From the NCBI RefSeq assembly GCF_034424215.1, contig NZ_CP139960.1, positions 1,302,001-1,366,000 of the forward strand: a stretch of 64,000 bases of DNA, written 5' to 3'. The position numbers and the translations under genes were made by a program. Positions 32,884 to 35,753 of the stretch are shown piece by piece. Under the pieces are notes generated by a model. It saw only the letters and a list, made by a program, of their open reading frames with translations. It was not told where the DNA came from and searched no databases. Positions within the stretch are counted from its first letter, which is position 1. Each line of letters begins with the position of its first letter. The DNA comes from Niabella yanshanensis. Its GTDB lineage: Bacteria > Bacteroidota > Bacteroidia > Chitinophagales > Chitinophagaceae.

Positions 32884-33357
32884 ATGAAAATCTTTTTCTG
32901 GTCTATTGGAAAAAATCATGACACTTATGTAAAATCGGGTATCGAAGACTTTTCCAAAAGAATTAACAACTATTTCAAGCTGGATTGGGAAATTATTGCT
33001 CCGCTAAAAAATGCCGCCAAAATGAGCATAGACGATATCAAAAAAAACGAAGGCGAATTGATCTTATCCAAAGTTCAAAAGGAGGATTTCCTGGTTGCCC
33101 TGGATGAAAGAGGCACGCAACTCAGTTCGGAAGGACTGGCTCAGCAAATACAGCTATGTGCTAACAACTCCAGTAAAAGAGTTATCTTTTTAATAGGTGG
33201 CGCTTTTGGTATACATGACGCTGTGCTAAACAGAGCCAACTTTAAATGGAGCTTATCAAAACTGGTATTCCCCCACCAGCTGGTAAGGCTGATATTAGCT
33301 GAACAAGTATATAGAGCCTGCACCATTTTAAAAAACGAGAAATATCATCATCAATAA
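32884..33357 (+). CDS. rlmH: 23S rRNA (pseudouridine1915-N3)-methyltransferase
   Basis: A 157-residue SPOUT-class methyltransferase that methylates pseudouridine 1915 in helix 69 of 23S rRNA. The SAM-binding knot includes VALDERGTQLSSE and FLIGGAFGIHDAV. The C-terminal LSKLVFPHQLVRLILAEQVYRA and KYHH end are diagnostic. Length matches E. coli RlmH (155). It is followed after 7 bases by a small membrane protein gene, probably one transcript. Confidence 0.96.
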   Translation: MKIFFWSIGKNHDTYVKSGIEDFSKRINNYFKLDWEIIAPLKNAAKMSIDDIKKNEGELILSKVQKEDFLVALDERGTQLSSEGLAQQIQLCANNSSKRVIFLIGGAFGIHDAVLNRANFKWSLSKLVFPHQLVRLILAEQVYRACTILKNEKYHHQ

Positions 33358-33364
33358 GTACCCG

Positions 33365-33742
33365 TTGAAATACCGCATCATTATTTTATTAAGCTTTTTT
33401 GCAGGTAGTTTGATCTCGCTGGCAAGCCTTATCATCATCAGGGAGCAACAGCCCCATCCTCTGCACACCCACCCCGGTAATGATATGGTAGGCTTAGCTT
33501 ATGGCCTGGCTGTTGGCTTTAATATAGTGCTGGCGCTTTGTTCTTTACCTTCCTTGCTGGCGCCGGCACGGGTAACAAATAAAGCATGGCTACCAGCTTT
33601 GTTACTGCTCGGTCTGCCCTTAGCTTTCACCCTATATAGCGCCATTGGACTGGATGCTTATGCGCTACTCTACTGCTTACCTTACCTGCTGGTAAGTTCT
33701 GTTTTATTCATCTTTCGTGTCAGAAAAGAGAGGCGCTTATAA
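33365..33742 (+). CDS. Small polytopic membrane protein
   Basis: A 125-residue hydrophobic protein with four predicted helices (about 5-22, 40-60, 72-90, 95-115) and a basic C-terminus (RVRKERRL). The start is a TTG only 7 bases after the rlmH stop; no ATG near the beginning fits better. No family recognised. Confidence 0.6.
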   Translation: MKYRIIILLSFFAGSLISLASLIIIREQQPHPLHTHPGNDMVGLAYGLAVGFNIVLALCSLPSLLAPARVTNKAWLPALLLLGLPLAFTLYSAIGLDAYALLYCLPYLLVSSVLFIFRVRKERRL

Positions 33743-33786
33743 TCGCCCTTCATCATTACCTTGTGCTTTAAAAAAGAAGCTCCGAT

Positions 33787-33954
33787 ATGCGTTATGATAC
33801 CTATAATACCGACGTAAAGGAGGGAACCATTTATAGCTACCCATTTAATAAATACTACAAAATTATATCACTAAACAGCTTCGCTGAATTTCGCGCAAAA
33901 TACTCAAATCTCCTACCTATATTTCGCATACCGGTCCGTGACCAAAGCAAATAA
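33787..33954 (+). CDS. Hypothetical 55-residue protein, possibly truncated
   Basis: An open frame MRYDTYNTDVKEGTIYSYPF ending in IPVRDQSK. It lies directly before an insertion-sequence-like stretch and the damaged GIY-YIG copy, so it may be the 5' part of a gene cut by that event. No domain recognised. Confidence 0.35.
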   Translation: MRYDTYNTDVKEGTIYSYPFNKYYKIISLNSFAEFRAKYSNLLPIFRIPVRDQSK

Positions 33955-33989
33955 TGGCTGGCTTCAGGTTTGCTAACTTTTGGAGCAAT

Positions 33990-34068
33990 TGTATTGCGTT
34001 GACGATAGGAAGTGAACAATCCCCCAATTTGAATTGATCCCCAAATATTCAACTTGATCCATGTAAAT
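33990..34068. mobile_element. Possible insertion-sequence end remnant
   Basis: On the reverse strand the stretch reads GGATCAAGTTGAATATTTGG, GGATCAATTCAAATTGGGGG, then ATTGTTCACTTCC. Repeated GGATCAA-type units of this kind are seen at IS21-family ends in Bacteroidota. There is no transposase. It begins exactly where the duplicated GIY-YIG coding sequence stops (after MPHYV). Confidence 0.35.
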
Positions 34069-34166
34069 ACATAGTGAGGCATCAGGAGGGGTGTCTTTAA
34101 GAGTTATAAAGCAAAAGGCTCCGATTACTCAGAGCCTTTTTGCGGACCGGACGGGACTCGAACCCG
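34069..34166 (-). repeat. 98-bp direct repeat, copy A (tRNA-Asp 3' end, terminator, leader)
   Basis: Identical to 34444-34541 except for one base (GAGTT versus GGGTT). In reverse-strand order it contains the tRNA-Asp T arm and acceptor 3' strand, a terminator hairpin (34113-34140), a leader and the first five codons of a GIY-YIG gene (start at 34082, MPHYV). After those codons the frame runs into the insertion-sequence-like stretch. Confidence 0.9.
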
Positions 34167-34195
34167 TCCCGGCTCAGCCGGGACCGTGACAGGCC
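34143..34195 (-). pseudogene. Partial tRNA-Asp (3' half)
   Basis: It carries the anticodon-loop segment CCTGTCACGG, the T arm CGGGTTCGAGTCCCG and the acceptor 3' strand TCCGGTCCG of tRNA-Asp. The 5' half is missing. In place of the variable region is a perfect palindrome GTCCCGGCT-C-AGCCGGGAC (34166-34184). It directly follows the GIY-YIG stop codon. Confidence 0.85.
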
Positions 34196-34196
34196 C

Positions 34197-34457
34197 TTAG
34201 CCTAAAAGATTGGTAGGCTGCGTAACCAGCCATTCGAAATACTCTTTCTTGCATTTCTTTAATTCCTTTTCTCTTATAAGAGCAGATTTTTTGTCCGAAT
34301 GCAATTCAACATAAATCAACACCCATGGACATTTTGACGATGTAAATGTTGATAGTCCTTCATTGTGCTCGCTAATCCTGCGCTCATAATCCGCTGTATA
34401 TCCCTTATAATAAGTGCCGTCTTTCAAACTTTTGATAATATAAACATAGTGAGGCAT
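34197..34457 (-). CDS. Small GIY-YIG nuclease, tRNA-associated
   Basis: An 86-residue single-domain GIY-YIG protein of the UPF0213/YhbQ type. The first motif is the YVYIIKS strand and the second is YYKGYT, followed by the conserved ADYERRISEHN with the catalytic Arg region. The metal-binding Glu would lie in IREKELKKC. There is no DNA-binding module. It lies 60 bases downstream of intact tRNA-Asp on the same strand, after that tRNA's terminator. Its stop codon abuts a copy of the tRNA-Asp 3' half. The position between two tRNA 3' ends, inside a 98-bp direct repeat, suggests a minimal homing-like mobile gene rather than a repair enzyme. Confidence 0.88.
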   Translation of the reverse strand: MPHYVYIIKSLKDGTYYKGYTADYERRISEHNEGLSTFTSSKCPWVLIYVELHSDKKSALIREKELKKCKKEYFEWLVTQPTNLLG

Positions 34458-34541
34458 CAGGAGGGGTGTCTTTAAGGGTTATAAAGCAAAAGGCTCCGAT
34501 TACTCAGAGCCTTTTTGCGGACCGGACGGGACTCGAACCCG
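34444..34541 (-). repeat. 98-bp direct repeat, copy B
   Basis: The proximal copy of the repeat at 34069-34166, offset 375 bases. It joins the 3' part of the intact tRNA-Asp (from the T arm), the terminator, the leader and the first codons of the intact GIY-YIG gene. Confidence 0.9.
34488..34515 (-). terminator. Terminator of tRNA-Asp
   Basis: AAAAGGCTC pairs with GAGCCTTTT around a 10-base loop, starting 3 bases after the tRNA 3' end. The same hairpin is duplicated at 34113-34140. Confidence 0.8.
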
Positions 34542-34591
34542 CGACCTCCGCCGTGACAGGGCGGCATTCTAACCAACTGAACTACCGATCC
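34518..34591 (-). tRNA. tRNA-Asp(GTC)
   Basis: A complete cloverleaf on the reverse strand: acceptor GGATCGG/CCGGTCC, D arm GTTC...GAAT, anticodon loop CTGTCAC (anticodon GTC), T arm CGGGTTCGAGTCCCG and discriminator G. It ends CA but not full CCA. It is the intact source of the partial copy at 34143-34195. Confidence 0.95.
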
Positions 34592-34682
34592 TTTCAAATT
34601 GGGAGTGCAAATATAGGAGCGTAAAAATTAATAGCCAAACAATTTTAAAAAAATTTTTCTACTTTTTTTTTATTTTGGCGCT

Positions 34683-35201
34683 ATGAACCTGAATATACTA
34701 TTACAAAGAGGCTACTCAAAAGAACAAGCAGATGAAGTGGTAAACTGGGTAAGCGATAACCAAAAACACTTCGATGAACTGCTAAGCGTCTTTCTTACAC
34801 ATCAGGACTACCGTATTGTTCAAAGAGCTGCGTGGCCTTTAAGTTATGCAGCCATTAATCAACCGCAGTTGATTAAAAAACATTATAAGAAAATTATAAA
34901 GCAACTTAATGCTCCGGGGCAACCTGCTGCAGTAAGAAGAAATATACTACGCATATTCGATCAGCTTCCCGAAATACCTGAAGATTATCATGGCGTGCTC
35001 ATGGATAGTTGTTTCCAATATATAGCCGATCCGGATGAAACCATCGCAGCGCAGGCTTACGCATTAGGTATACTCGAAAAGCTCACTAAACTGTACCCGG
35101 AAATATTATTCGAGCTAAAGACAATAGTAGAAGTAAGAATGCCCAATGCCGCACCTGCTTTCCGATCAAGGGCCAAAAAGATTTTAAAGAAAAAATCGTA
35201 A
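34683..35201 (+). CDS. HEAT-like helical repeat protein
   Basis: A 172-residue, all-helical cytoplasmic protein with helical pairs resembling HEAT/ARM repeats (DYRIVQRAAWPLSYAAINQP, AVRRNILRIFDQLPEIPED, DETIAAQAYALGILEKLTKL). The C-terminus is very basic (RSRAKKILKKKS). Homologous small proteins are common and unnamed in Bacteroidota. It is monocistronic; a TATTTTGG box just before the ATG is close to the -7 consensus. Function unknown, perhaps a protein-binding scaffold. Confidence 0.78.
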   Translation: MNLNILLQRGYSKEQADEVVNWVSDNQKHFDELLSVFLTHQDYRIVQRAAWPLSYAAINQPQLIKKHYKKIIKQLNAPGQPAAVRRNILRIFDQLPEIPEDYHGVLMDSCFQYIADPDETIAAQAYALGILEKLTKLYPEILFELKTIVEVRMPNAAPAFRSRAKKILKKKS

Positions 35202-35753
35202 CACATAAAGAAACTTCAATGAAGTTAAGCCATTCGTCGGCAATTTTACAAGCTCAACCTAATCATTTTCCATCATCTCTTAATGCACATAGCCCGTTTG
35301 AACAACTGCTTGACTCGTTTTTCCGGCGCTAATTCAGACTCCGTATGAGGCGCACAAACCCAGTTTCTTTTCTTTGATCCCGGCAGAGGCGCAGGCACAT
35401 TTCATGGGCGGATTCTTTTCATCGCAACCGGAGCTAATTTCTGCCAGGTAAGGGATTATGGTACTATTGGCTAAGGCACGTCCTACCTATCTCATTAATA
35501 ATGCATCAGCCGATCGGGGTCAGATGCATATAACTTCTTTGTACATATTCCCACCCATTTACCAAACGCCTCTTTACCACTGTCTTTCTTTACGGCCAGT
35601 TTACTAACGAACAAAGATGTTATTTCGTATTCCTTTCGATAATCCAACCGGGGTCTTTTCCTTTTATAGCTTGTTAAAATCGCGAAATATTTATTCAGAT
35701 AGGAGAATTAAAAAACCGATACAATTACATTTGCAGGCTTAAAAGGAAATATA
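35202..35753. other. 552-base gene-poor stretch with a startless frame
   Basis: On the reverse strand 35495-35707 is open for 70 codons and reads like a basic protein (RPRLDYRKEYEITSLFVSKL, then GKWVGICTKKLYASDPDRL), but it has no ATG near its beginning. It may be the tail of a lost gene. The rest shows no RNA gene or repeat. Confidence 0.3.
35726..35733 (+). promoter_or_regulatory. -7 box before serine hydrolase gene
   Basis: TACATTTG, in the context ATTACATTTGCAGG, lies 20 bases before the TTG start at 35754. No clear -33 element is visible. Confidence 0.45.

Follow-up and report, generated by a model that had tools for sequence, protein, structure and literature searches.

A putative intron-less homing-type element at bacterial tRNA genes, built from a minimal GIY-YIG gene and palindrome-tagged tRNA fragments

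Introduction

SegB is a free-standing GIY-YIG homing endonuclease of T-even phages; according to the accessible part of its description, the gene lies beside a tRNA gene and recombination forms tandem tRNA-gene units (PMC13096335). In fungal mitochondria, mobile ORFs (mORFs) at atp6 of Allomyces and at atp6, atp9, cox2 and nad3 of Glomus come with duplicated host-gene 3′ ends, as the available portion of that work reports (PMC3630166), and rRNA genes of CPR bacteria carry homing-endonuclease insertions, as stated in the accessible text of another study (PMC11270868). The enzyme family and the homing idea are already known.

Here we analyze a locus in a 64-kb stretch of the Niabella yanshanensis genome (the window), where the repeated unit measures 375 bp and consists of a GIY-YIG gene, part of the same tRNA beside which it lies, a terminator and a gene start. 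A sequence-only reading of the window had proposed a sub-400-bp element that duplicates the end of tRNA-Asp and leaves the tRNA intact, and the same design at many tRNA genes supports this proposal. Beyond that reading, we report a palindrome in the tRNA copies, protein lineages specific to particular tRNAs, copies on the 5′ side of the tRNA and a 5′-side version of the arrangement in a CPR phylum.

Results

All features of the locus lie on the minus strand, in the order tRNA-Asp, terminator-like hairpin, 86-aa gene, an incomplete second copy of tRNA-Asp (T′), and repeats of the terminator and of the gene's first codons. The intact tRNA-Asp(gtc) occupies 34517..34591 and is called in full by ARAGORN and by the Rfam tRNA model (68.1 bits). 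On its 3′ side follow a terminator-like hairpin with a T run (34488..34515, an inverted repeat in the sequence) and the predicted GIY-YIG nuclease gene (34197..34457, from the ORF and its Pfam match). T′, delimited by alignment and by the 98-bp repeat, lies at 34142..34193 and corresponds to tRNA positions 32-75; it is interrupted by a perfect palindrome, TCCCGGCTCAGCCGGGA on the plus strand, at 34167..34183 (hairpin search and alignment), which takes the place of the variable loop together with the last part of the anticodon stem and the first T-stem base. A second copy of the terminator-like hairpin (34113..34140, again an inverted repeat) precedes the duplicated leader and the stub of a second gene start, MPHYV (34064..34112, from the ORF list and the repeat), where the repeat ends. 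The ORF beginning with this stub had no match in Pfam.

The two direct repeats noticed earlier, at 34444-34541 and 34069-34166, are 98 bp long with exactly one mismatch and, when extended, span 103 nt at 97% identity with a spacing of 375; they form the only direct-repeat family of at least 30 nt listed in the window by the repeat finder (seed 14). Each holds the tRNA end, terminator, leader and MPHYV codons, and the tRNA homology of T′ goes beyond the T arm and acceptor that had been claimed, running from position 32 to the 3′ end. The complete 86-aa gene does lie between them with its stop beside the second tRNA part, the tRNA homology resuming 3 nt past the stop codon. In agreement with a unit that has neither integrase nor intron, this gene is the only ORF of at least 40 aa between the repeats, no intron was found in 33000-35500 by an Rfam search to an E of 1, and the intact tRNA-Asp is uninterrupted. 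A DNA search of the genome found this tRNA-Asp as the sole full-length copy, the other four matches being fragments or about 69% identical. Only 2 TCC..GGA hairpins with a stem of at least 6 occur in the whole window, and the T′ palindrome is one of them. Elements at tRNA-Phe and tRNA-Ser of the same genome share the design and have their own, different palindromes in the T loop and variable arm. The palindrome of the window, TCCCGGCTCAGCCGGGA, recurs at the tRNA-Asp of a named Sphingobacteriales record. As side observations, the region of T′ at 34144-34196 (minus) reaches 31.3 bits with the tRNA-like model mascRNA-menRNA, whose gathering score is 42.5, and a solitary tRNA-Asp 3′ fragment with neither palindrome nor nearby tRNA occurs elsewhere in the genome (G000:C1:569312-569346; about 1495-1529 of locus L010).

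The protein, P0001, consists of a GIY-YIG domain and little more (Pfam PF01541, 58.8 bits against a cut-off of 22.6; predicted model with a mean pLDDT of 92.6), that is, a catalytic domain with no evident DNA-binding domain. Residues Y6, Y17, R27 and E63, which we take to be the conserved catalytic tyrosines, arginine and glutamate of GIY-YIG enzymes, are invariant both in 15 and in 10 aligned proteins. The nearest solved relatives by sequence are UPF0213 and then SLX1, UvrC and I-TevI; a fold search with the predicted model ranked UPF0213 first and then SLX1-type proteins, I-TevI and UvrC. Searches with P0001 in NCBIfam, PADLOC and PHROGs had no hit; of 15 family members, 4 hit a model for group I intron endonucleases and 4 a model for phage homing endonucleases. 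The dN/dS ratio is 0.05, 0.08 and 0.09 in three gene pairs, in which the gene is under purifying selection; the remaining twelve pairs are saturated in dS. We considered and rejected a known anti-phage defence family, as no PADLOC family matches P0001 and the three weak matches each came from one of 15 members. Phages, plasmids and viral contigs were likewise rejected as vehicles: the relatives in 27 plasmid and 13 phage records are below 60% identity to P0001, and the viral contigs gave none.

Linkage to tRNA genes was counted over 216 loci in 208 clusters, omitting same-place duplicates (L008-L010, L022, L030, L087), long GIY proteins (L005-L007, L012, L024, L026) and loci fetched for other purposes (L120-L140, L142-L151). 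A same-strand tRNA lies within 250 nt in 162 of the 208 clusters, and an opposite-strand tRNA that near in none. The share of linked clusters is 62/70 in the family, 62/68 in the phylum and 7/10 among named records; the family and phylum shares are biased upward because their loci are the best-scoring entries of ranked lists. Bias is smallest in the genus set: a Pfam census of 17 Niabella genomes gave 60 clusters, 31 with a same-strand tRNA within 250 nt, 26 far from one and 3 too close to a contig end, with at least three further census loci outside the analysis (G005:C1:3433787, G009:C1:2745139 and G009:C1:357827). Among the 26 far clusters, 21 score below 60 with the profile of tRNA-linked members, and most of these form one separate clade. 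We also tested the expectation that homologues sit mainly at tRNA genes, and it held for 153 of the 174 clusters scoring at least 75 with the same profile. The linked tRNAs include Asp, Phe, Ser, Val, Met, Arg, Ala, Leu, Lys, Pro, Gly, Asn, Glu and Cys types, and in a genome sample of the window's phylum the profile has matches in 199 of 296 genomes (tRNA context checked for part of them). In a record labelled Deltaproteobacteria (L116/L297), outside Bacteroidota, tRNA-Asp is followed at a distance of 75 nt by a broken gene that begins MPHYVYIIQSLKDGTYY.

In the CPR phylum of a record labelled Kerfeldbacteria, profile matches occur in 140 of 192 sampled genomes (tRNA context again checked for part). 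Among the best 30 loci (L302-L331), 19 are tRNA-linked, and an opposite-strand tRNA was seen in none. The gene is 5′ of the tRNA in 17 of the 19, within 22 nt in 15 of these 17, which reverses the usual gene order of the window's phylum. An extra tRNA copy was found in just 5/19 linked loci, and a new hairpin in 4 of 7 copies.

Repetition of the tRNA near the gene, another expectation of the sequence-only reading, was borne out in other genomes: an extra copy of the same tRNA was found in 135 of the 162 linked clusters, against 2 of 810 decoy trials with tRNAs of other amino acids, and none was found in the other 27. Copies are downstream in 89 of the 162 clusters, upstream in 64 and on both sides in 30. 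A new hairpin with a stem of at least 6 is present in 156/226 copies versus 261/2260 shuffled copies, and a new TCC..GGA hairpin in 112/226 copies versus 7/162 tRNAs called functional and 5/224 3′ flanks of equal length; some of those 7 are probably interrupted copies that ARAGORN accepted, such as a “tRNA-Stop” in locus L081. The copies contain 79 distinct TCC..GGA palindromes of varying sequence. Palindrome position tends to repeat for a given tRNA and, numbered from 0, is mostly 36-38 in Met, 26-30 and 62-63 in Ser(gga), 35-46 or 50-51 in Asp and 27-28 in Val. The share of G.T among single stem mismatches, meant to separate RNA from DNA selection, is 8 of 27 versus 2 of 12 expected, which gives no clear separation.

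Several further arrangements of such copies were observed. Locus L140 (G000:C1:4604800-4606400) has a tandem array of four units at about 655-980, without a GIY-YIG gene; each unit is about 82 bp long and consists of a truncated tRNA 5′ part that carries TCCCGATAATTCGGGA. The array immediately precedes an intact tRNA readable as tRNA-Leu (undetermined by ARAGORN), and single copies similar to its units precede two other tRNA-Leu genes (L148, L147). From position 1603 of L125, the tRNA-Asp locus of genome G015, tandem units of about 84 bp consist of a palindrome-bearing tRNA-Asp 3′ end and a terminator, with no nuclease gene. Two full-length tRNA-Met copies with TCCGCCGCGGCGGA lie in tandem before an intact tRNA-Met (L053, 1167-1355). 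Genome-wide, TCCCGn..CGGGA exceeds the reversed control in G020 and other genomes even where the GIY profile has no match (56 versus 6 in G020).

Protein lineage tracks the tRNA, with lineages specific to particular tRNAs. Over 152 clusters (named records and unlinked clusters excluded), with the comparison confined to relatives in different families to avoid near-copies, the best relative is at the same anticodon in 49 (shuffled mean 9.1, maximum 22) and at the same amino acid in 72 (shuffled mean 13.8, maximum 30). A protein tree of 199 of the 208 clusters, built without short matches and repeated names and with 29 labels (28 tRNA types and “none”), requires 72 changes versus 146.5 when shuffled, the tree having few columns and many weak forks. 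Within one anticodon, hairpin position agrees with that of the nearest protein in 57/71 cases and of the most distant in 19/71; this fits a site defined by the nuclease, and also plain co-inheritance of gene and copy as one unit. The idea that protein lineage sets hairpin position across amino acids was tried on the 97 clusters with a hairpin call and rejected, there being no signal (20/97 versus 22.8 shuffled).

Occupied and unoccupied alleles were found at orthologous Niabella loci of both tRNA-Asp and tRNA-Phe. The tRNA-Asp is identical (75/75 nt) in all 17 genomes and, by the profile, is followed by the gene in the window's genome only. A search for unoccupied tRNA-Asp loci in relatives, as the earlier reading called for, gave G004 and G007, which lack the gene yet keep the conserved upstream neighbourhood and the identical tRNA. 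Other tRNA-Asp loci hold a truncated gene with 18 codons left (N. defluvii), a leader remnant (G009), or an array of palindrome-bearing 3′ ends with no gene (G015). The tRNA-Phe locus was found in 16 of the 17 genomes and carries the gene in 8; of the others, G006 and G011 have a gene-start stub alone, G001 a shortened remnant, and five no match. With one genome per species, the comparison shows presence, decay and absence without fixing the polarity of change, and no recent insertion between strains was seen. Tandem arrays, suspected from the window, do exist: 50 of the 208 clusters hold at least 2 genes, G361 has 5 units at 315-bp spacing behind tRNA-Asp, and neighbouring full-length genes are 302-443 bp apart in 43/46 pairs. 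Three identical tRNA-Met units in G007 were considered as evidence of movement within that genome and rejected, as they sit in duplicated segments of about 3 kb that are more than 99% identical.

Discussion

Based on these findings, we think it somewhat probable that the unit is a minimal intron-less homing-type mobile element at the gene of one tRNA isoacceptor, with tRNA fragments as its homology arms. We favour such an element because the arrangement matches that of the fungal mobile ORFs and resembles tRNA-segB amplification; in its support we count the tRNA linkage, the extra copies, the anticodon-specific lineages, the agreement of hairpin position, the empty and decayed loci, the dN/dS ratios and the invariant residues. 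Cleavage of tRNA DNA by the protein and movement of the unit are inferred, as is the role assigned to the palindrome. The nuclease would break the tRNA gene of its own isoacceptor, and repair would copy the unit from an occupied locus with the tRNA halves as homology arms; with such arms, the essential tRNA would be rebuilt and its old part displaced as T′. The palindrome would mark, and probably destroy, the nuclease site in T′, and recombination between the repeats could lead to array growth and to unit loss.

Several observations stand against this homing-type element. The intact tRNA of an occupied locus keeps the presumed target, with the same sequence as in empty relatives, so self-protection is unexplained by the model. 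Related proteins at tRNAs of different amino acids show no agreement in hairpin position, the lineage linkage could reflect mere co-inheritance of one unit, and the protein is a catalytic domain with no evident DNA-binding domain. No extra copy was found in 27 of the 162 linked clusters, and just 5 of the 19 linked CPR loci had one. Simple homing predicts the host's own terminator at T′, whereas the tRNA and T′ terminators differ in only 4 of 43 loci with no further homology, by a strict detector. Where the repeat extends past the tRNA (35/78 loci), the right junction falls near or just inside the gene start in 27 of 35; the model does not predict this position, which suggests a further rule for the junction.

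The palindromes invite two other explanations. As an account of the palindromes alone, they may be no more than the usual mobile palindromes of these genomes, which would accumulate in dead tRNA copies for want of anything that removes them. The excess of TCCCGn..CGGGA over the reversed control in G020 (56 versus 6), a genome with no GIY profile match, agrees with such palindromes, but the window's genome has just 46 in 5.54 Mb versus 31 in the control, and 7 of 14 inspected among these 46 (chosen partly as perfect-looking or clustered) lie in tRNA copies. Since TCC..GGA hairpins also occur in only 5/224 flanks beside copies, and palindrome positions recur by tRNA across families, we consider this explanation rather unlikely, while giving it real weight. 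Alternatively, the palindromes could be the ends of the element and guide its mobility, with a nuclease specific for the hairpin or branched DNA of the palindrome-bearing copies, much as TnpA/REP systems use hairpins. Among solved relatives, SLX1-type nucleases of branched DNA rank next to UPF0213 in closeness, ahead of UvrC and I-TevI; the 79 distinct TCC..GGA palindromes in the copies vary in sequence; and the nuclease-free array of palindrome-bearing truncated tRNAs at L140 resembles a non-autonomous derivative. The SLX1-like fold and this array before a tRNA-Leu-like tRNA keep a structure-guided mechanism in consideration, but a second conserved end was not identified, the palindrome position differs between tRNAs, and many copies have no detected new hairpin (stem of at least 6 in 156/226), so we judge it unlikely.

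Accounts that place the selected function elsewhere fare less well. If the protein acted on its cognate tRNA or the precursor, the palindrome-bearing copies could be decoy, antidote or processing RNAs; T′ is in sense orientation directly after the gene, has 31.3 bits with the mascRNA-menRNA model (gathering score 42.5) and is predicted to fold into the palindrome hairpin next to an intact T arm. This fold is no better than that of shuffled sequences (z of -0.95), and GIY-YIG enzymes are generally known to act on DNA, which makes an RNA-level system improbable. The nuclease might instead promote tandem tRNA amplification to the benefit of the host: in phage T6, SegB amplifies a 718-bp tRNA-Tyr-segB unit, as the accessible part of that report describes (PMC13096335), and the tandem arrays here are similar. 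The inspected extra copies are mostly truncated or palindrome-interrupted, so the arrays add nuclease genes and hardly any working tRNAs; a dosage system of this kind seems to us very doubtful. Least credible of all is that the copies are passive remnants of tRNA duplications made by an integrase, with an unrelated gene caught between them. Many integrations use tRNA genes as their sites and leave tRNA fragments behind, according to the available part of a previous study (PMC9897764), but a single gene family is met at many tRNAs, the window's repeats enclose no other ORF of 40 aa, gene spacing in arrays stays at 302-443 bp in 43/46 neighbouring full-length pairs, and 5′-side copies occur too (64 upstream and 89 downstream among 162 clusters), so that such a coincidence is scarcely believable.

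The recurrence at many tRNA genes in distantly related bacteria suggests a widespread selfish element that is apparently undescribed. In the PMC literature covered by our searches, we found no description of the arrangement, nor of palindrome-tagged tRNA copies, isoacceptor-specific lineages or a two-phylum spread. More broadly, such units may form a class of tRNA-gene parasites in at least two bacterial phyla, comprising isoacceptor-specialised minimal GIY-YIG families that move in units of about 300-450 bp (gene plus palindrome-tagged tRNA fragment), in which the tagged copies, nuclease-free arrays included, would be an active part, namely a site, an end or an immunity tag; we put this wider claim forward tentatively, with doubt slightly outweighing belief. 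Should it hold, sub-kilobase selfish units sit at many tRNA genes of both the window's phylum and a CPR phylum, and annotation would break each of them up into a tRNA, a small protein and noise. The nucleases would then be a natural panel of compact enzymes, each tied to a known tRNA sequence, and target recognition by bare GIY-YIG domains would therefore be directly testable. Tandem pseudo-tRNAs would also be explained, and bacteria would have a counterpart to the mobile ORFs of fungi and their duplicated gene ends.

Among known systems, UPF0213 proteins (PDB 1zg2 and 1ywl) are the closest solved sequences, and 1zg2 has the closest fold; they are small stand-alone GIY-YIG domains entered as hypothetical proteins. 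In REP/RAYT and IS200/IS605 systems, short palindromes are tied to a small nuclease-like protein and non-autonomous arrays occur, but the enzyme fold is different and there are no tRNA arms. SegB shares with the window's element a GIY-YIG gene beside a tRNA gene and tandem tRNA units; it belongs to phage genomes, and the accessible part of its description reports neither palindrome-marked tRNA copies nor an isoacceptor preference (PMC13096335), whereas the window's protein has little beyond the catalytic domain and is encoded in a bacterial chromosome. The CPR insertions are likewise homing endonuclease genes at stable RNA genes, but inside rRNA genes according to the accessible text (PMC11270868), while those described here are beside tRNA genes. 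In the fungal mORFs, the endonuclease gene brings a replacement 3′ end and the native end is displaced downstream, as would happen with the homing-type element that we favour; these mORFs are at protein genes of mitochondria and mostly encode LAGLIDADG enzymes, and the available portion of that work describes no tRNA targets or palindromes (PMC3630166), in contrast to the tRNA-linked, palindrome-tagged GIY-YIG units found here.
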